Program-made: the position numbers and the translations under genes | DNA from: Thiobacter sp. AK1 | Lineage (GTDB): Bacteria > Pseudomonadota > Gammaproteobacteria > Burkholderiales > Thiobacteraceae | Assembly: GCF_039822265.1 (NCBI RefSeq) | Contig: NZ_JBAJEX010000001.1 | Span: 62,001 to 126,000, forward strand | Length of the DNA stretch: 64,000 nucleotides | Reading direction: 5' to 3' | The notes under the pieces: generated by a model | Database searches by the model: none | What the model was told of the DNA's origin: nothing | Seen by the model: only the letters and a program-made list of their open reading frames with translations | Shown here: piece by piece, positions 28,405-39,552 of the stretch | Numbering within the stretch: position 1 is the stretch's first letter | Layout: each line of letters begins with the position of its first letter

Positions 28405-28854
28405 TCAAGCCCTTAGACTCAGGCCGGCAGGCGCTTCCGCCATCTGGGCGACGGGAAGCTGCTGGCGCTCGCGCGCGGCGAGTGCCACCCAGGCTTCGCG
28501 CAGGTTGCCCAATAGGCCCATCACCTCGTCCAGCCCCGCCGGATCGTTCCTGAGGTTGGCGCTGGCCAGCCGCCGCTTCATGTAGTCGTAAAGGGCCTCG
28601 AGATTGCGGGCGATCTCCCCACCCTTCTCATGATCCAAGACCGACCGCAGGCCTTCCACGATGCCGATGGCCTTGGAAATCAGCGCCCCTTTTTCGGCCA
28701 GTTTCATTTCCTGCATGCGGCCCTTGGCCGAGGCGAGGGCGGCCAGCGCACCGTCATAGAGCAGCACGATGAGCTGCACGGGGCTTGCTGTGGCGACGGC
28801 GGTCTGCAGATCCACGTCCGTATAGGCAGTGAGCGCCCGATTCATCGTGTTCAT
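28405..28854 (-). CDS. fliS: Flagellar export chaperone FliS
   Basis: Binds the C-terminus of flagellin in the cytoplasm and prevents its premature polymerisation. The 149-residue protein has ALTAYTDVDLQTAVATASPVQLIVLLYDGALAALASAKGRM, with the VQLIVLLYDGA helix typical of the family, and AIGIVEGLRSVLDHEKGGEIARNLEALYDYMKRRL. It is followed by fliT with a short overlap. Confidence 0.95.
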   Translation of the reverse strand: MNTMNRALTAYTDVDLQTAVATASPVQLIVLLYDGALAALASAKGRMQEMKLAEKGALISKAIGIVEGLRSVLDHEKGGEIARNLEALYDYMKRRLASANLRNDPAGLDEVMGLLGNLREAWVALAARERQQLPVAQMAEAPAGLSLRA

Positions 28855-28878: not shown

Positions 28879-30240
28879 TCAGCGAGGGAGTGAAGAGAGC
28901 GCGCGCAAAAGCTGGCTGCTGGTCTGTTGCATGCTGCCCAGCATGGCATCGAGCGCGGCGAACTGGGCGCGCAGGCGTTGTTCCATGGCGTCCAAGCGTA
29001 CCTGGAGCTGAGCCTTGCGTTGCTCGATGTCGGAGATGCTCGCGTTCAGACTCTGCGTGGTCGCATCCAGCACGCCGTTCGTCTGGAGTAGATTGTCAAG
29101 CTGCGTAAACAGACGCTGGGCAAAGCCCTGGGTGTTGTCCGTCAGCAGGTTGATGACGCTATCGAGCTTGTTGCTCACCGCGGCATTGAAGTCGGCACTG
29201 TTGAGCGCAAGCTTGCCGTCCTTCTGGAGGCTGATGCCGATCTGGGCGAGATAGTTGAAATCATTCCCGGGCAGGTTCACCGAAGCATTGAACACACCCA
29301 GAATCTGGGACTGGATGGTGAGCACCGTGTTTTGCGCCTCCAAGGTGCCGCCTTTTTGGTGCAGCTCATCCATATCGCTGACGAGCTTGTTGTAAGCATT
29401 GATGAAATCGTTCACCTTGGCGGTGATGGCGTCCCGATCCACCGCCACCGTCAGTTGAGTACTGCCCACGGCCTTGAGATTGAGGGTTACGCCCTGGATG
29501 ACGCCGCTTACGCTGTTGGAGGCACTTGTAATGCCCGTCAGCCCATCGACGGTCAACACGGCATCCTGCGCTGCCACGGTCTGGGTGAGGTTTTGCCCGC
29601 CGGCCACGTAGGATAGGCGAGAAAGCCCGAGATTGTCGGTATTGTTGCCATCGCCCGTATCGGTCACCGCCACTGTGATGGCTTTGGCCGCGCCGGTATC
29701 GTTGGGCGACAGTACCAGGCGGTAACCCGTGCCATCGTTGAGCAACGTGGCAGATACACCAAAGTTGCCGGTGGCGGAGTTGATGGCATTGGCAATGCCC
29801 GCCAGCGTGTTATTGCTGCTGTCGATGGTGACCGTGAAGCTATTTGTGCCGTTACTCAGAGTGAGCGTGCCTAAGCCCACCTGCGTCGTATTGGTGTCGG
29901 CGAACGCGCCCGAGACGAGCTTCTGCGCCTGCGCAAGCTGGGTCACAGTGATGGAATGGGTGCCCGGTAGCGCAGTGGCGTCCGCCGTGGCGGTGAAATA
30001 AACATCAGTAGCCGGTATCGCCTTGAACACCTGGAAATCGGTTCTGTCCTTGAGTGCGCCAATGGCGCTTTGCAAGGCGGCGAGATCGCTTTTCAGTTTG
30101 CCGTAAGCGGAAATCTCGCTGGTGAGCAGGGATTTCTTCTGGTCGAGGACATTCAGGGGCCGGCGCTCGATGGCCATGAGCTGGGAAACCAGCCCGTTCA
30201 CGTCCAGATTGGAACCGATACCGGCAGATGAAATCGCCAT
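28879..30240 (-). CDS. fliD: Flagellar hook-associated protein 2 (filament cap) FliD
   Basis: Forms the pentameric cap under which flagellin subunits fold. The ATG at 30240 with AGGAG eight bases upstream gives MAISSAGIGSNLDVNGLVSQLMAIERRPL and a 453-residue protein. N- and C-terminal coiled regions (residues 1-60 and about 370-453, the latter with LTDNTQGFAQRLFTQLDNLL and SISDIEQRKAQLQVRLDAMEQRLRAQFAALDAMLGSMQQTS) flank a variable beta-rich centre. No cysteine is visible. It lies between flaG and fliS. Confidence 0.95.
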   Translation of the reverse strand: MAISSAGIGSNLDVNGLVSQLMAIERRPLNVLDQKKSLLTSEISAYGKLKSDLAALQSAIGALKDRTDFQVFKAIPATDVYFTATADATALPGTHSITVTQLAQAQKLVSGAFADTNTTQVGLGTLTLSNGTNSFTVTIDSSNNTLAGIANAINSATGNFGVSATLLNDGTGYRLVLSPNDTGAAKAITVAVTDTGDGNNTDNLGLSRLSYVAGGQNLTQTVAAQDAVLTVDGLTGITSASNSVSGVIQGVTLNLKAVGSTQLTVAVDRDAITAKVNDFINAYNKLVSDMDELHQKGGTLEAQNTVLTIQSQILGVFNASVNLPGNDFNYLAQIGISLQKDGKLALNSADFNAAVSNKLDSVINLLTDNTQGFAQRLFTQLDNLLQTNGVLDATTQSLNASISDIEQRKAQLQVRLDAMEQRLRAQFAALDAMLGSMQQTSSQLLRALSSLPR

Positions 30241-30276
30241 GACACGCTCCTGTCTTGCCTGTTTGCTCCGATGGAT

Positions 30277-30300
30277 GGCATGGCGCTCGCGCGCCATGCC
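30277..30300. other. Perfect 10-bp stem-loop between flaG and fliD
   Basis: GGCATGGCGC at 30277-30286 and GCGCCATGCC at 30291-30300 are exact reverse complements around a 4-base loop. There is no T tract on either side, so an intrinsic terminator is unlikely; RNA processing or message stability is possible. Confidence 0.5.
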
Positions 30301-30326: not shown

Positions 30327-30704
30327 TCAAACCTTTGATCGGAACAGCACACCCTGTGCCGAATCCAGGTGTTTGGCGATGGTGAGCGCCTCTTCCGGTG
30401 GGATTTGGCGGATGACCTCGCCACTTTCCCGATCCACCACCTTCACCACTACCATTCCGGTGTCCTGGTCCACCGAAATTTTCAAGTCGCTTTGGGCGGA
30501 CTGGATGAAGGCATTGATGCGCTCGACCGCCTGCTTCACCACCTGGGCGTCGGCTTGTTGCCTCTGTCCAGGCGCGGGAAGCAGTAGTGTGGTCGCCGGA
30601 GGCGGCATAGGTGGCGGCGTCTCGGGCGAGACGTTTGGCGCCGCCCCTGAAACACCACCCATCCGCATCCCCGGACCCAAGGGGGAGATGGAACCGTTGG
30701 ACAT
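30327..30704 (-). CDS. flaG: FlaG family flagellar protein
   Basis: 125 residues: a disordered Pro-rich N-terminal half and a C-terminal FlaG domain with VERINAFIQSAQSDLKISVDQDTGMVVVKVVDRESGEVIRQIPPEEALTIAKHLD. FlaG genes lie beside flagellin and fliD in many polar flagellates, where loss tends to change filament length. The position here between fliC and fliD agrees. Confidence 0.92.
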   Translation of the reverse strand: MSNGSISPLGPGMRMGGVSGAAPNVSPETPPPMPPPATTLLLPAPGQRQQADAQVVKQAVERINAFIQSAQSDLKISVDQDTGMVVVKVVDRESGEVIRQIPPEEALTIAKHLDSAQGVLFRSKV

Positions 30705-31727: not shown

Positions 31728-31754
31728 TTAACGGCGCTTGCGACTTGAACTTTA
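31728..31754 (-). promoter_or_regulatory. Sigma-28 (FliA) promoter of fliC
   Basis: On the minus strand TAAAGTTC (31754-31747), an 11-base spacer, then GCCGTTAA (31735-31728). The FliA consensus is TAAAGTTT-N11-GCCGATAA, so both halves match at 7 of 8 positions with exact spacing. The leader to the fliC ATG would be about 70 nt. Confidence 0.85.
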
Positions 31755-31943: not shown

Positions 31944-34900
31944 CTACCGGGTCAAGGCGCGCAGCCATTCATCCAGATGGTTTTCCAGCAGGTAGTGCCG
32001 GCGTACCCATTCTCGAAGTTCGTCACCTTCCGCTTGCGCGGCATCAAGGTCATGAATGCGCTCGCGGATGGCTTCGACCCAGGCCTCGGTGGTGTTCGGA
32101 ACCCGTTTCACCGGTGCGTCGCGATAGGGATGGATGTCGGTGCACACCACAGGCCATCCTAGGATGCCGTATTCCAGCAGGCGCAGATTGCTCTTGGCTT
32201 CGTTGAAGGCGTTGATGGCAAGGGGTGCCACGGCCAGATCCAGGTCCAGGCTCGCCAGCTTGGCGGGATAGTCATAGAAGGAAACGACAAAATCGTGATA
32301 CTCGCGTACGTGAGGACGGAGCGCGTCGGGACACATGCCAAAGAACACCCAGTCCACTTCTTGGGCGGTCGCTTTTACCACATCGGCTATGAGAGCTAGA
32401 TCCCCGGCGTGCTGCTGCGCACCCGCCCAGCCCACGCGGGGTTTTCGCCCCACGCGGCGCCGTGACGTGAGATGCCCCCAGATCGCGTTTTCCAAGCGGT
32501 TAGGCAGGACGCGCACATCCTCGTGCATAGTCCGGCATAAGTTTGCGATAGGCTCGGTACTAACCACCACCCGATCGGAGAGGGACAGCGCTTTGCGTAA
32601 ACGGGGTTTGACGTCGCGCGGCATATGCCGATGGAAAGAGTTCTCGGGAGGCAGTTCCGTCACCAGATCGTCCAGCGAGAAGACGAGTAGCACGTCTTTA
32701 TTGTATTGCCGGTATTGGTGCATGGCCTTCAGGTGCGCATCTCCGAGCGTGGCATGCAATACGAAGGTGTCGGGCTGGGCACGCGCCAGCTCGACGGGCC
32801 AAACCACCCTGCTCTCGAAATATTTGCCACCTTGAACGACGTCACCATGGGCGAGCCCGGCCCGGCTCAGGGCGCGGAACGGGCCAATGATACGGTACTC
32901 CCCGGAACCGCCGGCTAGCGGCAAGCCCAACAAGCGGGGCCGGTCGTGAAAATTCGGGTCCCAGTCGATGACCAGCGTGCTTTCCACTTCATACCCGGGT
33001 GGCAACAAGCTGAGATGGCGGTTGTAGGCAGGATCGGTGGCCAAGACTGGCAGCCAACGCTCCAGCATCACAGCCCGTTCCTGCTCGGCACGCGCGTAGT
33101 CAGTGGCAAGTTTCATAAGATCGACCCCAGCGCTCTTGATGCTGCTCGACCCATGGTGCACCACCGTAGCATACGGGGTCCAGACGACCTTGTAGCCTGC
33201 GCGCCCAACCTTCAAGCAAAGATCGACGTCGTTTAACAACACTTTCAGATGATCTTCATCCATTTCCGCGACCTGCTGGTACACGGTTTTCCGTACCAGC
33301 ATGCAGGCCGCGGAGACCGCCGAATAGTTTTGATCGACGAGGGCACGTTTCATGTAACCCGGGTCATTCAGGCCCAGTCTGCCGTTGAAAGGATGATCAG
33401 CAACGCCGTGAAGACCCAGCACGACACCAGCGTGTTGCAACTTGCCTGTCTCGGGATAAACTAGCCTCGCCCCGACGATTCCCACCTCTGGCCGCTGGCC
33501 GTAGTTCAACATGCGTTCCAACCATTGCGGCTGAACGATTTGGGTATCGTTGTTCAAAAGTAGCAAATAGTCGCCCTTTGCCTGCCGAGCCGCCAGGTTG
33601 TTCATGGCGGAAAAATTGAACGGTGCGTCATAGGACAGCAGGCGCACCCGCTCGCCGTGGGTCTTTTCCAGCTCGCGGTAATAATCCAGCACGTCAGGGT
33701 CAGTGCTTTGGTTATCGACGATGATCACTTCGTAGTAGGGATAGCTCGTCTTTGCCAAGAGGCTTTCCACGCACGGCTTGAGAAACTCTAGCTTGTCCCG
33801 GTTCGGAATGATGATGGAAACCAAGGGTTGCTCTGCATGTGCGTACGTCACGCGATGCGTGCCAGGGATGTAACCCGGAGTCACTTCGCCCGCAATTCCA
33901 GCCCGGCGCAAATGGGCGCGGACAGCCTCCATCGCTGCCTCGTCGCTTTTGGTGAGCATCCCTGTTTCCGGCAGATGAACGAGGACATCGGCAATGTGTC
34001 CAATAGCCTCCTCTCCCACTCGGTCGAGCACGCGCAGGGCCAAGTCATAGGTTTCGGCACCTTCCAGAGTGGAATAACCACCAGCCTCAAGCACGGTATC
34101 GGCGCGAACCGTGAAGGGACCGATGTAGTCCATGGAGCGGAGCAAATCCAAGTTGAAGTCTGGCTTGAACCAGGGCTCTGTCATCCCACCATCGTGCCCA
34201 CTCCGGTCATGGTCGCTATAAATGAGGCGCCAGTTCATTCTCGAGTTGATGTAATCACCCATCCGGAGCATTGCATGGGGCTCGAGTCGCGCCCCAGGAA
34301 GAAGGCACCAAAGCCACGCTTGCGACAAACCCGCCAATACGACATCCACTGCTCGCTTGCGCTCGGAAACTGTGCCCGCCTGAATCCACACCAGCTGAGG
34401 AATCGTGTTAAATGCTGGGTCTGGTGAGGGCACGGGCGCTACGACAATAAGTCGCCAATTTTTATACAGTTGCAGCGCTAAGGAATCTACCGTGTCCGCG
34501 AGTAGCCCCAACTCATTTCCCCCAACCACGACCAGACAAACAAACTCCGGCTGGTTACCCCATTTGGTCATCATGCGCTCGGCAAACAACTCGCCATCGA
34601 TTTCTTGCAAGCCGTGTTTGCTGCGCCAGATTTGGTACCGTTCAGTTTCGCCGCGCAATGCGTCGGATCTCGTTATCGCACCCGTAGGTCTCACGTAGCC
34701 AGCCTCGACCAGCGCCAAGCGCTCGGTACGTGCCCGTGCGGTAAGTTCGTCGGCCAGATCTCGGCTGCGCTCGTAGATGTCGCGCCAAGTCACGGCAAGG
34801 TGCTCCTGACCCAACCCAGTGCGTTGTTGCTGTAAACCTTCGCGCACTCGCACTTCGACCGATGTATGTGCCAGATGCTTTGGGCGCGAATAGCGCGCCA

Positions 34901-37574
34901 ACCGTATGAGATATTCCCAATCCTCGAGCACCGGTAATCGGTCGTCGAAGAGACCAGCCTGACGCACGAGTTCCCAGCGATGTGCCCAAGTACAGATCGG
35001 AATATAGTTGGCCACCAGCAGCCGCTCCCGTGAGAAATCTAGGTGAGCGTACGGATTGTGCCCGGCGCCAAGTACCGTGCGCTGGCCGTCCGGTTCAATG
35101 CGCTCCGGAACGAGAACGGCATCGGTGTAGACAAAGTCGCACCCGTCCTCATGCAAAGCTGCGACCACGGTCGATAAGTGATCGGTCCGCCAGAGGTCAT
35201 CGTCATCGAGATAACAGACGATCTCGCCGCGCGCGAACTTTAGTGCCGTGTTACGGGCTGCGCCAGGACCGAGCGAGCGCGGATGGCAGAAATAACGCAG
35301 GCGGCTGCGCTCGGGGTCGGCGGCGGCGACGATCGCCGCGACGTCCTCGCCGCCGTCGTTGACCACGATTCCTTCCCAGTTCGGATAGTCCTGGGCCACG
35401 AGCGAGGCGAGCGCATCGGCGAGCAGGCGCGCTCGGTTGTGCGTAGGAATGATGACAGTCACCAGCGGCCCGCCTGGGTCGTGGTGCAAAGCCAGCGGCT
35501 GCTGCGCCGCAGCCTGGCGCGCCAAGGTCGCGCGCGCCCAGGCGAGATCCTCGGCGCGATAGAGGGTCGGGTTGTTGAGCATGATCTGCGCGCGCTTTTC
35601 CTCAAAGTGCGCGAGCGCATGCTGGTAGAGCCCGGTGTCGTGCCGGCGATAGAGGAAGAGCGGCTCCGGGATATAGCGCCCGTAGTAACCGCGCGCGCAG
35701 GCGGCCACCCAGAAGTCCCAGTCCTCGCAACCTTTGACGTTGTCGCGGTAGCCACCCACATCCTCCCACACGCAGCGTCGGTAGAGCGCGCAGTACGAGA
35801 TATGATTCTGATAGGGTAGCCGCACCGGATCATAAGGCGCGGCTTTGACGAGTTCGGTGACCCCATCGAAGTCCACTCGGTCGGTGTAGGCAATAGCCAC
35901 GGTGGGGTCTGCCTCGAGCGCGGCAACACAGCGCTCGAGCATAGTCGGCGCGATCATGTCATCGGCATCGAGGCAAAGGATGTATTGACCGCGTGCTTCT
36001 CGAATGCCACGGTTGCGCGCGTGTGCAGGCTGGCCCGAGTTCGGCTGCCGGATAACCCTAATCGCCACCTGACGGCAGTCTGCCACAAGACGTTCACACA
36101 CTTGCGGAGTATCGTCCGTGGAGCCGTCATCCACGATGATGATTTCAAAGTCTCGAAAGGTCTGCGCAAGTACGCTGCCTACGGCCTCGCTCAGATAGCG
36201 CCCGTAGTTGTAACAAGTGATGACCACCGAGACCTTGGGCGAGCACAGACTATCGGAAAGCGCCGCGGTCGCCTCCAACGCTGCCCCTGGGAGGGCAGCC
36301 GCCGACCGCCTGCCCTCCTCGACATCAACCCGGTCTGCCCCATCGGCGAGCTTGCGCCAGGCGGCAAAGGCCTCCTTCACCACCGCCTTCATGTCGGCGT
36401 AGGGCTCGGTCTTGACCAAAAACGGCATGATGTAGGTGTAACGCGCGCGGTGCAGCGGCGCGCGCTCGGGCGTGTCGTACGGAACGAATTCGTCCGGCCC
36501 GTGGTTCTTAAGATAGTTCGGGTCGATGCCGTCACAGACCTCGCGCGCCCCGCAACGGGCGCATGGTTCGCCGAAGTGCTTGAGATTCGCCCCACGTACG
36601 CCAGTCACCCGTACACCGTTGTCGTGCTGTGCCTGCGTGGGGCGGAAGGTCAAATAGTCCTCAATCCCGCCCTCGCGCACCGGAAGCCTCGCGGCACACT
36701 GTGCTGGCGTACCGCCAAAATGGCCGGCCGCATTCATCCATTCATAGGGGTCGTACCGCACGCCAAGCATCCCGACCAAGTTCTTTTCCATGCCGCGCAC
36801 TGCACACAAGGGCGCGTAGCGGATATTGACGGCCACATCGTTCGACTCAAGAATCGCCACCGCCTCGCTGAGGTACGGATGGATGTCGCTATAGCGCGCC
36901 TGCACGCCAAAAGCGCGCCCGTCGCGGTTCCATTCGTAATAGGCATTCATGATGATGAAATTGTGCAGATAGATGCCGTGCCGCAGGATCTCCCGCGCAA
37001 TGTCCGGCAGATGGCGGTAGTTCCAATCGACAACCGTGGTGTTGCTCGTGAACTGGAAACCCTTTTCGTCGAGATACTCCATGGCGCGGCGCTGTCTTTC
37101 CCATGATTCGCCAGTCAGTCTTTCGAACAACGCCTCGTCGACGGCATGCATGGAAAAGAGAAAATTCACCAGCCCCGCCTCGAGCAGGTCGTCTATGAGC
37201 CGCTCGTTCTGGCAGTTTTTCATGCGCCGCATGAGGTACTGGCCGAGAGTGATGATGCGCCCTTTGAGTCCAAGTTCCTGATGGGCGTAGCGCGTAATCT
37301 CGATGATGTTTTGATGCAGTGTGGGCTCGCCGCCCGTGAAGTCGAAGTTCACGAACCCCTGGGCGGCAAGCAGGCGGAGGATCTCCTTGCACTCCTCAAG
37401 CGTGCGGAACTCTGCACGGCGCATGCCACGGAACTGATCGTCGCTACCGTCGAGATAGCTGTAGTAGCAGAACTTGCAGGAGTGGACGCATTTCAGTCCC
37501 ACGTCCAGCACGGCCCCGCGGCTGAGCCGGCCGGGTGTATGGAGAAAATATCCTGGGTTATTTCCGTTCGGCAT
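31944..37574 (-). CDS. Giant multi-domain protein: radical SAM + four GT2 modules + GT4-like module
   Basis: One uninterrupted frame of 1876 residues with GAGGACGTGAT before the ATG. Domains seen: radical SAM about 20-350, with C29-x3-C33-x2-C36 for the 4Fe-4S cluster, GGEP at 81-84, and a second cysteine set C338-C341-C347 resembling an auxiliary-cluster (SPASM/twitch) site; GT2 module 1 at about 446-690 (VSVVITCYNYGRYL, VDDGSTDDT, LDADD); GT2 module 2 at about 703-930 (VTVIIPTHNRARLL, YLDDDD); GT2 module 3 at about 1009-1235, RfbC-like, with IYSDHDRS and EPWFKPDFNLDLL but a weakened nucleotide-binding start; GT2 module 4 at about 1250-1510 (VSIIIPNRDKLEFL, LLLNNDTQ); a GT4-like end at about 1550-1876 (VGWAGAQQHAGD, EAKSNLRLLEYGILGWPVVCTD). 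No signal peptide or membrane helix, so cytoplasmic. It lies between a UDP-glucuronate decarboxylase and flagellin. The likely role is building a glycan, perhaps on flagellin; the radical SAM chemistry is unknown. Confidence 0.88.
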   Translation of the reverse strand: MPNGNNPGYFLHTPGRLSRGAVLDVGLKCVHSCKFCYYSYLDGSDDQFRGMRRAEFRTLEECKEILRLLAAQGFVNFDFTGGEPTLHQNIIEITRYAHQELGLKGRIITLGQYLMRRMKNCQNERLIDDLLEAGLVNFLFSMHAVDEALFERLTGESWERQRRAMEYLDEKGFQFTSNTTVVDWNYRHLPDIAREILRHGIYLHNFIIMNAYYEWNRDGRAFGVQARYSDIHPYLSEAVAILESNDVAVNIRYAPLCAVRGMEKNLVGMLGVRYDPYEWMNAAGHFGGTPAQCAARLPVREGGIEDYLTFRPTQAQHDNGVRVTGVRGANLKHFGEPCARCGAREVCDGIDPNYLKNHGPDEFVPYDTPERAPLHRARYTYIMPFLVKTEPYADMKAVVKEAFAAWRKLADGADRVDVEEGRRSAAALPGAALEATAALSDSLCSPKVSVVITCYNYGRYLSEAVGSVLAQTFRDFEIIIVDDGSTDDTPQVCERLVADCRQVAIRVIRQPNSGQPAHARNRGIREARGQYILCLDADDMIAPTMLERCVAALEADPTVAIAYTDRVDFDGVTELVKAAPYDPVRLPYQNHISYCALYRRCVWEDVGGYRDNVKGCEDWDFWVAACARGYYGRYIPEPLFLYRRHDTGLYQHALAHFEEKRAQIMLNNPTLYRAEDLAWARATLARQAAAQQPLALHHDPGGPLVTVIIPTHNRARLLADALASLVAQDYPNWEGIVVNDGGEDVAAIVAAADPERSRLRYFCHPRSLGPGAARNTALKFARGEIVCYLDDDDLWRTDHLSTVVAALHEDGCDFVYTDAVLVPERIEPDGQRTVLGAGHNPYAHLDFSRERLLVANYIPICTWAHRWELVRQAGLFDDRLPVLEDWEYLIRLARYSRPKHLAHTSVEVRVREGLQQQRTGLGQEHLAVTWRDIYERSRDLADELTARARTERLALVEAGYVRPTGAITRSDALRGETERYQIWRSKHGLQEIDGELFAERMMTKWGNQPEFVCLVVVGGNELGLLADTVDSLALQLYKNWRLIVVAPVPSPDPAFNTIPQLVWIQAGTVSERKRAVDVVLAGLSQAWLWCLLPGARLEPHAMLRMGDYINSRMNWRLIYSDHDRSGHDGGMTEPWFKPDFNLDLLRSMDYIGPFTVRADTVLEAGGYSTLEGAETYDLALRVLDRVGEEAIGHIADVLVHLPETGMLTKSDEAAMEAVRAHLRRAGIAGEVTPGYIPGTHRVTYAHAEQPLVSIIIPNRDKLEFLKPCVESLLAKTSYPYYEVIIVDNQSTDPDVLDYYRELEKTHGERVRLLSYDAPFNFSAMNNLAARQAKGDYLLLLNNDTQIVQPQWLERMLNYGQRPEVGIVGARLVYPETGKLQHAGVVLGLHGVADHPFNGRLGLNDPGYMKRALVDQNYSAVSAACMLVRKTVYQQVAEMDEDHLKVLLNDVDLCLKVGRAGYKVVWTPYATVVHHGSSSIKSAGVDLMKLATDYARAEQERAVMLERWLPVLATDPAYNRHLSLLPPGYEVESTLVIDWDPNFHDRPRLLGLPLAGGSGEYRIIGPFRALSRAGLAHGDVVQGGKYFESRVVWPVELARAQPDTFVLHATLGDAHLKAMHQYRQYNKDVLLVFSLDDLVTELPPENSFHRHMPRDVKPRLRKALSLSDRVVVSTEPIANLCRTMHEDVRVLPNRLENAIWGHLTSRRRVGRKPRVGWAGAQQHAGDLALIADVVKATAQEVDWVFFGMCPDALRPHVREYHDFVVSFYDYPAKLASLDLDLAVAPLAINAFNEAKSNLRLLEYGILGWPVVCTDIHPYRDAPVKRVPNTTEAWVEAIRERIHDLDAAQAEGDELREWVRRHYLLENHLDEWLRALTR

Positions 37575-37688: not shown

Positions 37689-38627
37689 CTACGATTTTAG
37701 GAGTCTTTTGAAATAGCCTATGGTCTCCCGCAACCCATCTTCCAGCTCCACTTGCGGCGCCCACCCAAGCTTGACTCGAGCCAGAGTAATATCTGGCTTG
37801 CGTTGCTTGGGATCGTCCTTCGGAAGAGGACGAAAGGTGATCTTTGCCTTTCCACCGACCAGTTTCAAAATTTTCTCGGCGAGCTCCAGCATTGTGACTT
37901 CCTGCGGATTACCAAGGTTGACGGGCCCCGTAAAATCCTTGTCACTGTCCATCAGTCGCAACAACGCTTCGATCATGTCATCGACATAACAGAAGGAGCG
38001 GGTTTGCTGCCCATCCCCAAAAATTGTGATGTCTTCGCCTCTTAGAGCTTGCACGACAAAATTACTTACCACTCTCCCATCATTCGGATGCATACGTGGG
38101 CCGTAAGTATTGAAGATTCGCGCCACTTTGATATCCAGGTTGTGCTGGCGGTGATAATCGAAAAATAGGGTTTCGGCGCAGCGCTTACCTTCGTCATAAC
38201 ACGAGCGTGGGCCAATTGGGTTGACGCGCCCCCAATAGTCTTCCGTTTGTGGATGCACCTCGGGATCGCCATACACTTCACTCGTAGATGCCTGCAATAT
38301 GCGCGCCTTGATCCGCTTGGCCAGCCCCAGCATGTTGATCGCACCATGAACGCTCGTTTTCGTGGTCTGGACTGGGTCACGCTGGTAATGCACGGGCGAA
38401 GCTGGACATGCGAGGTTGAATATCCGGTCCACCTCGACATACAGAGGGAAAGTGACGTCATGTCGCAACAGCTCGAAATAAGGATGAGCTAGCAGATGAA
38501 AAATGTTGGCTTTGGTGCCCGTAAAAAAATTGTCAACACACAATACGTCATATCCGCGTTGAATCAAGCGCTCACACAAGTGTGAGCCCAAAAATCCAGC
38601 CCCGCCGGTTACCAGAATCCGCTGCAT
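37689..38627 (-). CDS. UDP-glucuronate decarboxylase (UDP-xylose synthase), SDR family
   Basis: Oxidises and decarboxylates UDP-glucuronate to UDP-xylose with tightly bound NAD. The ATG at 38627 follows GGGGAG; 312 residues, typical for soluble bacterial UXS. Motifs: [19 protein letters not shown] (NAD-binding), [27 protein letters not shown] with catalytic Ser/Thr, [13 protein letters not shown] with the YxxxK pair, [22 protein letters not shown] and [15 protein letters not shown], which together are specific to the UXS branch of epimerase-like proteins. It is 114 bp upstream of the giant glycosyltransferase gene in the same direction. Its base composition is clearly lower in GC than flanking housekeeping genes (line 37861-37920 is 28 of 60), which suggests acquisition by transfer. 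Confidence 0.9.
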
Positions 38628-39552
38628 ATACTCCCCCACTACTCCTTTACATTCAGAGTATTCATTAGTCAATCGGTGCGCGCGCCATGAGATGAACTAC
38701 CCATGACATTCATCTCCGTCTTTTACATCTCTCCGGCGCCTACCCGGGGTGGACGAGCCCAGGCAGTCCGGCTCGCAGTCGAATTCTCGACCGGGTATTC
38801 AATGCCCTGCGGCCATCGCGCGCAACCCAGGCGCACCTGCGATCACCTCTATCCTGCGTCCTGAAGAGCAATCTGGGTTAAAACCCCAATCGACTGCTCG
38901 TCGGACGCCATCGCAGCCCATGAGCAGAGCGGGTAGGGTCTCCGCCCACGCCCGGTGCCTGGATGGAAACACGGAACGGCCACTGCTGGGTCTGGCTACG
39001 GTTGCTTGCCTTATCGAGTGCTACGTAAGCAGGTGACACGCTTACGTCGTCCCCGCCAAAGCGGGGACCCAGGAAGAAGGCCGGTACGATTCTGGAGTCC
39101 CGCTTTCGCGGGAATGACGGACCACTCATTAAGCCTGTCACTTGCTTTTGTAACGCCCTTTAAAAGGACGCACCTGCACTTCACCTAGAAGCGGAAGGAG
39201 GCAGCGTAGCGGGCAACCCATTTTTGCCACCCTTAGCCGTTTTCGGCATGGCGATTCAAGACTTTAACCTCCCGTGAAGAGGTTGGAAGGTGTGCTACAG
39301 AAACCTGGCCATTTAGGTTGCCAGCGGCGCTGGAGTCGGGAATGACGACAGACCTTCTCTGCAGGCAAACATGCCAAAGGGGCGGATCAAAGCGCTCCGC
39401 TGGCGTAATGGGCGAGACGTTTCGATGCATGGATGCAGCCGGGACACGGTTCAGCGTGTCTTGCCTCTGTGTCGCTGAGGCCGCAATCGATACGTCCTTT
39501 TTCGGAACCACGGCGACAAACTTGAGGCGCGGTGTGCCAGCCCAAGCCACCG
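38628..39552. other. 925-bp gene-free stretch with repeats
   Basis: No supported gene; the open frames lack RBS, family resemblance and codon bias. It contains a fragment like the arms of the palindromic element (TGGGTTAAAACCCCA, 38873-38887), a full inverted pair of the REP-like repeat (39045-39120) and a half unit at about 39329-39350. A weak promoter-like TTGACT (38672-38667) lies before the UDP-glucuronate decarboxylase gene. Confidence 0.6.
39045..39120. repeat. REP-like repeat, inverted pair
   Basis: CGTCGTCCCCGCCAAAGCGG at 39045-39064, followed by GGACCCAGG, and the opposing unit TCTGGAGTCCCGCTTTCGCG with GGAATGACGG ending at 39120. The two units face each other, giving a structure that can fold as a long hairpin. 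Same family as the repeats near 4.5, 42.3, 59.1 and 63.2 kb. Confidence 0.65.

Follow-up and report, generated by a model that had tools for sequence, protein, structure and literature searches.

A radical SAM domain fused to a chain of glycosyltransferase modules beside flagellin in Thiobacter sp. AK1, with a probable role in flagellin glycan tailoring

What would a radical S-adenosylmethionine (SAM) enzyme do at the head of a chain of glycosyltransferases encoded next to flagellin? The question is raised by one gene in a 64,000-base stretch of the Thiobacter sp. AK1 genome (contig NZ_JBAJEX010000001.1, positions 62,001 to 126,000; hereafter the window), which an earlier note made from the letters alone had described as a single polypeptide joining a radical SAM enzyme to five glycosyltransferase modules. 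We think that its 1876-residue product is a cytoplasmic assembly line for flagellin O-glycosylation, in which the radical SAM domain, together with the adjoining glycosyltransferase family 2 module (GT2a), alters a sugar of the glycan; we assign this reading a probability of about 0.6. The frame, on the minus strand, opens with an ATG at 37574 and reaches its stop at 31944; it is unbroken, as the note had said, and lies in the interior of a contig of 634,625 bases, one of 32 in a 2.54-Mb genome rated 99.97% complete. That it is an assembly chimera or a gene in decay is hardly credible: the third GT2 module (GT2c) is vestigial, the homologous gene of the same-genus genome G009 is divided between two contigs, and the joint near residues 660-700, at about 35,470-35,600, was seen in no other genome, but the radical SAM and GT2a parts are likewise fused in three other loci (L012, L014, and L030), the run from GT2b to the C-terminal GT4-like end is unbroken throughout in L060 and L061 and as far as the contig end in L064, and the loss in GT2c is common to four family relatives and is therefore old.

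The N-terminal domain was assigned by sequence and by structure prediction. Residues 28-195 matched Pfam family PF04055 (E = 1e-21), and an alignment of 30 rows (from which L029 and L031, with frame breaks, and L008, L045, and L047 were left out) showed Cys29, Cys33, Cys36, Cys257, Cys338, Cys341, and Cys347 to be invariant in every row, although the constancy of Cys257 was partly selected in the viral rows, as this residue belonged to one of the two patterns used in the viral scan. The G81-G82-E83-P84 residues (TGGEP) were equally invariant. The CX3CX2C motif, the GGEP motif, and the CX2CX5C set named in the earlier note were thus upheld, Cys257 had escaped it, and its suggestion of a second Fe-S cluster draws support from the same invariant cysteines. 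SPASM domains carry a seven-cysteine C-terminal motif and two auxiliary clusters, and in Twitch-type radical SAM enzymes one auxiliary cluster is bound by four cysteines. Beyond CX3CX2C the 30 rows share four invariant cysteines (Cys257, Cys338, Cys341, and Cys347), which is short of the SPASM set and equals the number expected of the Twitch type, a comparison made on sequence counts. The seven invariant cysteines probably serve the SAM cluster and one auxiliary cluster. The CX4CX3CC motif of FliB-type enzymes was not found in the domain, whose motifs are CX3CX2C and CX2CX5C.

The AlphaFold2 (AF2) model of the domain was obtained with a mean predicted local distance difference test score (pLDDT) of 93.9 and a predicted template modeling score (pTM) of 0.93. 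Its nearest solved folds were viperins (Z = 21.9), SuiB (20.2), and BlsE (19.9), followed by SkfB (18.8), anSME (17.6), MoaA, and others, and a profile search of the sequences of solved structures with the family was led by PqqE, BlsE, and MoaA. The CX3CX2C and GGEP motifs, the Pfam match, and the top fold matches, all of them radical SAM structures, place the domain in the radical SAM superfamily. The modeled fold is compatible with nucleotide, sugar, or peptide substrates and does not decide among them.

Behind this domain, three stretches matched Pfam GT2 families above threshold (residues ∼449-575, 703-908, and 1250-1477), corresponding to modules GT2a, GT2b, and GT2d, which retain the GT2 motifs VDDGSTD/DADD, VNDGG/DDDD, and VDNQSTD/NND, respectively. 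For GT2c, Pfam gave nothing in the window and, in one homologue, a sub-threshold GT2 match (E = 0.0024); neither DDGS nor DXD was present in it in the window or in four same-family homologues, in keeping with the note's remark that the third module looked weak. The GT4-like end matched Glyco_trans_1_4 below threshold in the window (15.1 bits against a cut-off of 27, E = 0.028) and in two homologues (E = 0.0016 and 0.007), and a profile search of solved structures returned one match, to a periplasmic binding protein (E = 0.75). Structure prediction, which the note had proposed, was confident for the radical SAM domain but not for this end, where the AF2 model from a 7-row alignment had a pLDDT of 43 and was not used as support. 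On the basis of these sequence features, we read the gene as three sound GT2 modules (a, b, and d), one vestigial GT2 module (c), and one probable GT4 module behind a radical SAM domain; the five modules first claimed overstate the number of sound ones.

The modules of this protein point to two different histories. The radical SAM domain was present in 1 of 10 family genomes, the window's own, and in 2 of 369 genomes of a class-wide sample, where the second was a 31% match; the C-terminal glycosyltransferase part was matched in 9 of the 10 (weakly or over a short stretch in G004 and G007). The closest relatives found for the radical SAM domain were in L030, L012, L014, and L013 (63-70% identity), from genomes labelled Chloroflexota, Myxococcota, and Thermodesulfobacteriota, and those of GT2a were in L014, L012, and L030 (62-70%). 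Within the family GT2a reached 43% at best (L066) and then 28-34%, and the radical SAM domain had no match. GT2b scored best within the family (172-212 bits, 41-45%), with L012 next (144 bits, 43%); GT2c had above-threshold matches in same-family genomes alone; and GT2c, GT2d, and the GT4-like end were nearest to the same family (42-78% overall, 55-76% for GT2d, and 60-78% for the GT4-like end). Because the radical SAM domain and GT2a match other phyla and GT2b through the GT4-like end score best in the family, the radical SAM-GT2a pair behaves as a transferable unit, which appears to have come from afar and to have been joined to a resident multi-glycosyltransferase gene. The G+C content of the pair (0.60) and of the other modules (0.55-0.62) speaks neither for nor against transfer, and the argument is therefore one of module similarity. 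The contig of L012, whose fusion is the closest in identity to that of the window, is labelled Chloroflexi; it may be a misbinned low-coverage contig.

The slot taken by the radical SAM-GT2a unit holds other domains in relatives. It was scanned in five of the seven loci with long homologues (L065 ends at a contig edge and L066 was left out) and contains a methyltransferase followed by GT2 in L060 and L062, a GT-like part (identified by eye) followed by a methyltransferase in L059, and an extra GT2 in L061 and L064. A flagellin of 79-93% identity was found in four of eight fetched family stretches (L059, L060, L063, and L065), in three of which one large gene stands between the multi-glycosyltransferase gene and flagellin. 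This second large protein (L059:1446-4997, L060:7081-10824) is, in L059, the one scanned, rich in tetratricopeptide repeats (TPRs) and has a GT9 match. The two parts of the G009 gene (L062 and L063) lie near two contig ends, where a repeat or mobile element is possible.

Recurrence of the fusion was examined in 84,980 species genomes, which were scanned with short patterns; the scan was not exhaustive and gave 22 bacterial loci. With the window, these make 23 bacterial carriers (L029 and L031 were kept in the neighborhood counts, and L047 and rows of a viral scan below 35% identity were kept out of the family). The radical SAM domain and GT2 share one frame in 10 of the 23 (the window, L012, L013, L014, L015, L026, L028, L029, L030, and L032; the L029 fusion has a frame break in its radical SAM part). 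A Flagellin_N match lies within 8 kb on the same contig in 6 of the 10 fused carriers and in none of the 13 unfused ones (Fisher p = 0.002), at 0.3 kb in the window and 0.1, 2.9, 3.8, 4.3, and 7.3 kb in L012, L030, L013, L015, and L014, respectively. Within 25 kb the counts were 8 of 10, with the addition of L028 (15.7 kb) and L026 (Telmatospirillum siberiense 26-4b1, 23 kb), and 1 of 13 (L024, 13 kb; Fisher p = 0.0007). The match in L014 is FlgL by NCBIfam (160.8 bits against a cut-off of 127.2), so true flagellin within 8 kb falls to 5 of the 10 fused carriers, and the best models for L012, L013, L015, and L030 are flagellins at scores below the curated cut-offs. A chance neighborhood was rejected, as about 0.13 carriers were expected within 8 kb from genome sizes, Flagellin_N counts, and 10 fused carriers and 6 were observed, a comparison in which the window, our starting point, and one FlgL are among the six, Flagellin_N matches cluster, some contigs are short (L032, 15 kb), and the carriers are related. 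The domain order recurred in part: the radical SAM-GT2 pair is found with varying tails, but the exact order rSAM-GT2-GT2-GT2*-GT2-GT4, where the asterisk marks the vestigial module, was seen in the window alone. As to whether homologues are always separate genes far from flagellin, which the earlier note had raised against itself, the fusion stands, yet the 13 unfused copies fit that description at a distance of 8 kb.

GT2 usually accompanies the family. A GT2 match is fused or within 5 kb in 19 of the 22 bacterial loci, at ∼7 kb in L017 and L025, and absent from the flank in L021. The frame L013:8546-19387 encodes 3614 residues with a radical SAM domain, four GT2, GT4-type, and GT9 matches, and many TPRs, 3.8 kb from a flagellin-like gene. 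Of 395 genomes sampled from the phylum to which G379 belongs, 9 had matches at 1e-40 (3 known, 2 new and close, and 4 more distant). Plasmid carriage was not detected in 72,556 records at 1e-10; at E = 0.01, 66 records matched, none over 80% of the radical SAM query, and the best 5 of the 66 were two PqqE, one BlsE, and two unannotated proteins. In the radical SAM tree the three Rhodospirillaceae rows group firmly (100/99). A second, more distant radical SAM paralogue accompanies the unfused copy in six genomes, at 1.1-1.5 kb in G385, G387, G389, G397, and G399 and at ∼56 kb in G388, and distant relatives occur in long frames in L076 (G784) and L077 (G591), G784 having two radical SAM matches in one 1144-residue frame.

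The surroundings of the fusion gene are flagellar. Flagellin starts 295 bases past its stop, in agreement with the adjacency first noted, and FlaG, FliD, and FliS follow on the same strand, with a FliK-type hook-length protein farther downstream; glycosyltransferase and sugar genes beside flagellin genes are the arrangement of a flagellin-glycosylation locus. A scan of the 64-kb window for sigma-28-like sites, allowing up to three mismatches to the consensus, gave 3 sites against 0.08 expected by chance, and 195 kb of viral control loci gave none at the same tolerance. In L061 and L064, two of eight same-family stretches, a site with two mismatches lies 84-90 bases before the homologous glycosyltransferase frame, and L063 has one site alone, with three mismatches, before flagellin. 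These sites support a flagellar link that is not universal. A 23-base repeat bearing a palindrome (39098-39120) lies between one such site and the decarboxylase gene described below, and its second genome copy is near the start of contig 2. If the protein instead built a cell-surface polysaccharide such as the lipopolysaccharide O-antigen, flagellin would be a chance neighbor; unfused relatives do lie near glycosyltransferases, and polysaccharide loci often contain RfbC-like GT2 pairs and genes for UDP-xylose synthesis. We consider this decidedly improbable. In four same-family loci flagellin and the homologous glycosyltransferase part share a fetched stretch, sigma-28-like sites stand before the unit here and before the gene in two relatives, carriers of the fusion concentrate near flagellar genes, and Pfam detected no lipid-carrier or polysaccharide-export family among 14 neighboring open reading frames (ORFs).

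The gene 114 bases upstream, on the same strand, encodes a UDP-glucuronate decarboxylase (UDP-xylose synthase) matched over essentially its full length by solved enzymes of this type (best E = 3.2e-127, residues 14-325). It is the single match in the genome at E ≤ 1e-40, its G+C content of 0.51 is low relative to the fusion modules, no inverted repeats of at least 14 bases were found around it, and counterparts of 73-75% identity lie elsewhere in the genomes of four same-family relatives. Its position raises the prospect that the radical SAM domain acts before transfer, converting a nucleotide sugar such as UDP-glucuronate or UDP-xylose into a modified form with which it supplies GT2a. One of the best matches in both sequence and fold is BlsE (PDB 7vob), a cytosylglucuronate decarboxylase with a sugar acid as substrate (E = 1e-12 for the radical SAM core by the family profile), and viperins bound to CTP or UTP head the fold list. 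The sequence likeness to BlsE is, however, limited to the radical SAM core (residues 47-201), the two are 18% identical over the aligned fold, BlsE is a stand-alone antibiotic enzyme with no glycosyltransferase fusion, and among the fetched relatives a strong decarboxylase match in the flank was obtained for L017 alone (535 bits; the next, L026, had 127). We regard nucleotide-sugar synthesis as a minority prospect, somewhat unlikely on balance.

The mechanism that we favor is tailoring of the glycan itself. The fusion protein would probably be made late, with the flagellar regulon, and its GT2 and GT4-like modules would assemble a short glycan on flagellin ahead of export. The radical SAM domain, which occupies the place of a fused methyltransferase in some relatives, would act with its neighbor GT2a on a sugar of that glycan (by oxidation, epimerization, or decarboxylation, for example) through a 5'-deoxyadenosyl radical and with the aid of one auxiliary cluster. 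UDP-xylose from the next-door decarboxylase may supply one of the sugars, an idea that stems from that one adjacent gene. Given the flagellar neighborhood, flagellin is the likely acceptor, and glycan tailoring seems the most likely role because the radical SAM-GT2 pairing recurs, three relatives have a methyltransferase in this slot, and GT-methyltransferase fusions of flagellin loci are known. The domain could alternatively modify the flagellin polypeptide, by creating a side chain that GT2a later glycosylates, a crosslink, or a methyl group, in the manner of a maturase of ribosomally synthesized and post-translationally modified peptides fused to its partner. Its fold is near those of SuiB, SkfB, and anSME, its neighbors are structural proteins in bacteria and phages alike, and FliB, a different Fe-S enzyme, methylates flagellin lysines (excerpts of PMC8598068). 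We hold this to be unlikely, since the slot contains methyltransferase or glycosyltransferase modules in the five scanned relatives, a GT-fused methyltransferase has been proposed to act on rhamnose (excerpts of PMC5207246), most unfused copies have a GT2 neighbor and lack a Flagellin_N match over 8 kb, and the full SPASM cysteine set is missing.

Several observations weigh against glycan tailoring of flagellin. The same-genus genome G009 lacks both the radical SAM domain and the decarboxylase, and the latter is unmatched in the fetched same-family glycosyltransferase stretches. Five of the eight same-family stretches (L059, L060, L062, L065, and L066) have no sigma-28-like site. The unfused copies, none of which has a Flagellin_N match within 8 kb, are the majority (13 of 23), and the two new close copies from the 395-genome sample, G611 and G788, are both unfused. 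Among the nearest folds, SuiB acts on peptides and viperin on nucleotides, beside the sugar-nucleoside enzyme BlsE.

Table 1. Coordinates of the fusion gene, its domains and motifs, and neighboring features in the window.
Feature	Positions	Strand	Basis
1876-residue fused protein, radical SAM-GT2a-GT2b-vestigial GT2c-GT2d-GT4-like	31944..37574	minus	ORF translation, Pfam
Radical SAM domain, one probable auxiliary Fe-S site (residues 1-409)	36348..37574	minus	Pfam, 30-row alignment, AF2, fold search
CX3CX2C motif C29-C33-C36	37467..37490	minus	invariant 30/30
C257, probable fourth auxiliary-cluster ligand (role inferred)	36804..36806	minus	invariant 30/30
CX2CX5C C338-C341-C347, probable auxiliary-cluster ligands (role inferred)	36534..36563	minus	invariant 30/30
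GT2a (residues 446-655), travels with the radical SAM domain	35610..36239	minus	Pfam; motifs kept
GT2b (residues 703-920)	34815..35468	minus	NCBIfam, Pfam
GT2c, vestigial (residues ∼1010-1240)	33855..34547	minus	aligns with GT2 modules; DDGS and DXD gone
GT2d (residues 1250-1490)	33105..33827	minus	Pfam
Probable GT4-like end (residues 1530-1876)	31947..32987	minus	sub-threshold Pfam Glyco_trans_1_4
Flagellin FliC, 284 residues	30795..31649	minus	Flagellin_N and Flagellin_C (Pfam)
FlaG	30327..30704	minus	domain scan
FliD filament cap	28879..30297	minus	Pfam
FliS chaperone	28405..28854	minus	domain scan
UDP-glucuronate decarboxylase (UDP-xylose synthase)	37689..38672	minus	2b69, 4gll, 4m55, 4lk3 at E ≤5e-126
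Sigma-28-like site, 2 mismatches, 568 bases before decarboxylase, upstream of fusion gene	39240..39266	minus	consensus scan
Sigma-28-like site, 2 mismatches, before flagellin	31728..31754	minus	consensus scan
Weaker sigma-28-like site	39499-39525		consensus scan

Relatives of the radical SAM domain are also carried by phages. Two alignment-based scans of IMG/VR, which were not exhaustive, found relatives at ≥40% identity in 12 distinct viral contigs (identical radical SAM sequences, L036/L037 and L040/L041/L046, were counted once, and L009/L010/L011 are the same contigs as L034/L035/L045). In the tree, 10 of 11 viral rows formed a firm clade (100/100), adjoining L028 and the Rhodospirillaceae fusions (94/95), with L035 placed elsewhere. 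In 7 of the 12 contigs (L034, L037, L038, and L041-L044) the radical SAM gene follows an HK97 capsid gene whose end is no more than 1.6 kb upstream of it. With the identical copies included, the contigs that have this cassette are L034, L036-L038, L040-L044, and L046. Each of the seven has a small protein between the two genes, phrog_5707 in L038, which is a candidate target or decoration protein; six have a glycosyltransferase after the radical SAM gene, assigned to phrog_14945 in the two tested (L042 ends at a contig edge), and four have a methyltransferase, before the radical SAM gene in L038 and L044 and, of FkbM type, after it in L041 and L043. Capsid glycosylation has been suggested from two glycosyltransferase genes in one abstract (PMC11256854). 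The other contigs are more varied: in L039 the radical SAM gene and a glycosyltransferase are present and the 10-kb flank gave no capsid match, L035 has glycosyltransferases and methyltransferases in an island, and L045 has a radical SAM-GT2 fusion followed by terminase-like and portal-like genes (recognized by eye from the sequences). Viral radical SAM-GT2 fusions were also found in L096 and L097, where the large ORF that follows (L096:7930-12252, L097:9919-12969) has intein-type matches and is possibly an intein-bearing terminase. GenBank phages gave distant matches alone, in 15 Campylobacter phage records at 25-27% identity; these proteins (CP220 group) do not belong to the same family as the radical SAM domain of the window. 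The earlier note had mentioned neither the phage relatives nor the chimeric origin and changing N-terminal slot of the bacterial gene.

Parts of this system have precedents. FgtA/Fgt1 of Pseudomonas are large multi-module flagellin glycosyltransferases that adjoin fliC and, to our knowledge, have no radical SAM domain. In excerpts of two papers, Enterobacteriaceae flagellin islands encode GT41/GT2-methyltransferase fusions (PMC4875605), and type B C. difficile has a fused GT2-methyltransferase proposed to add and methylate rhamnose (PMC5207246). These islands resemble the window in fusing a glycosyltransferase to a tailoring domain beside flagellin, but here that domain is a radical SAM domain with a probable auxiliary Fe-S site. 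FliB is also an Fe-S, SAM-dependent protein, and it modifies flagellin; it differs in its CX4CX3CC motif, single cluster, and lysine methylase activity, and no CX3CX2C is reported in the excerpts of PMC8598068. Among the matches listed from searches of open-licence PubMed Central papers, FliB alone was relevant to radical SAM enzymes and flagellin, the flagellin-island papers made no mention of radical SAM, none was relevant to radical SAM, glycosyltransferase, fusion, and phage together, and one concerned a radical SAM enzyme acting on sugar, an epimerase of neomycin. Flagellin glycosylation by large glycosyltransferases, glycosyltransferase-tailoring fusions, and radical SAM enzymes on sugars are thus known separately. 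A radical SAM-glycosyltransferase enzyme of flagellin glycosylation was not found in the open-licence papers, which does not prove its absence from print, and the union of these three elements, its recurrence across phyla, and the capsid-side phage relatives appear to be new with respect to that literature.

A broader picture can be offered tentatively, at somewhat less than even odds. Radical SAM enzymes of one family, paired or fused with glycosyltransferases, may use radical chemistry to change the glycans (or the residues that bear them) of self-assembling protein coats, flagellar filaments in several bacterial phyla and capsids in phages; the radical SAM-GT2 cassette of this family may have passed between phyla and been inserted into the flagellin glycosyltransferases already resident there in place of methyltransferases, and one branch may have entered phages. 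Flagellin and capsid glycans can affect motility, immune recognition, and phage attachment. The tailoring steps listed for enterobacterial flagellin islands are formylation, methylation, acetylation, amination, and lipid addition (excerpts of PMC4875605). If our reading is correct, radical SAM chemistry would join protein glycosylation. The gene would then offer a testable example of one polypeptide building a glycan and altering it by a radical step, and it would give a handle on the role of the radical SAM-glycosyltransferase pair close to phage capsid genes. For the family to which Thiobacter belongs, it would provide a natural module-swap series in which tailoring domains can be compared in the same slot.

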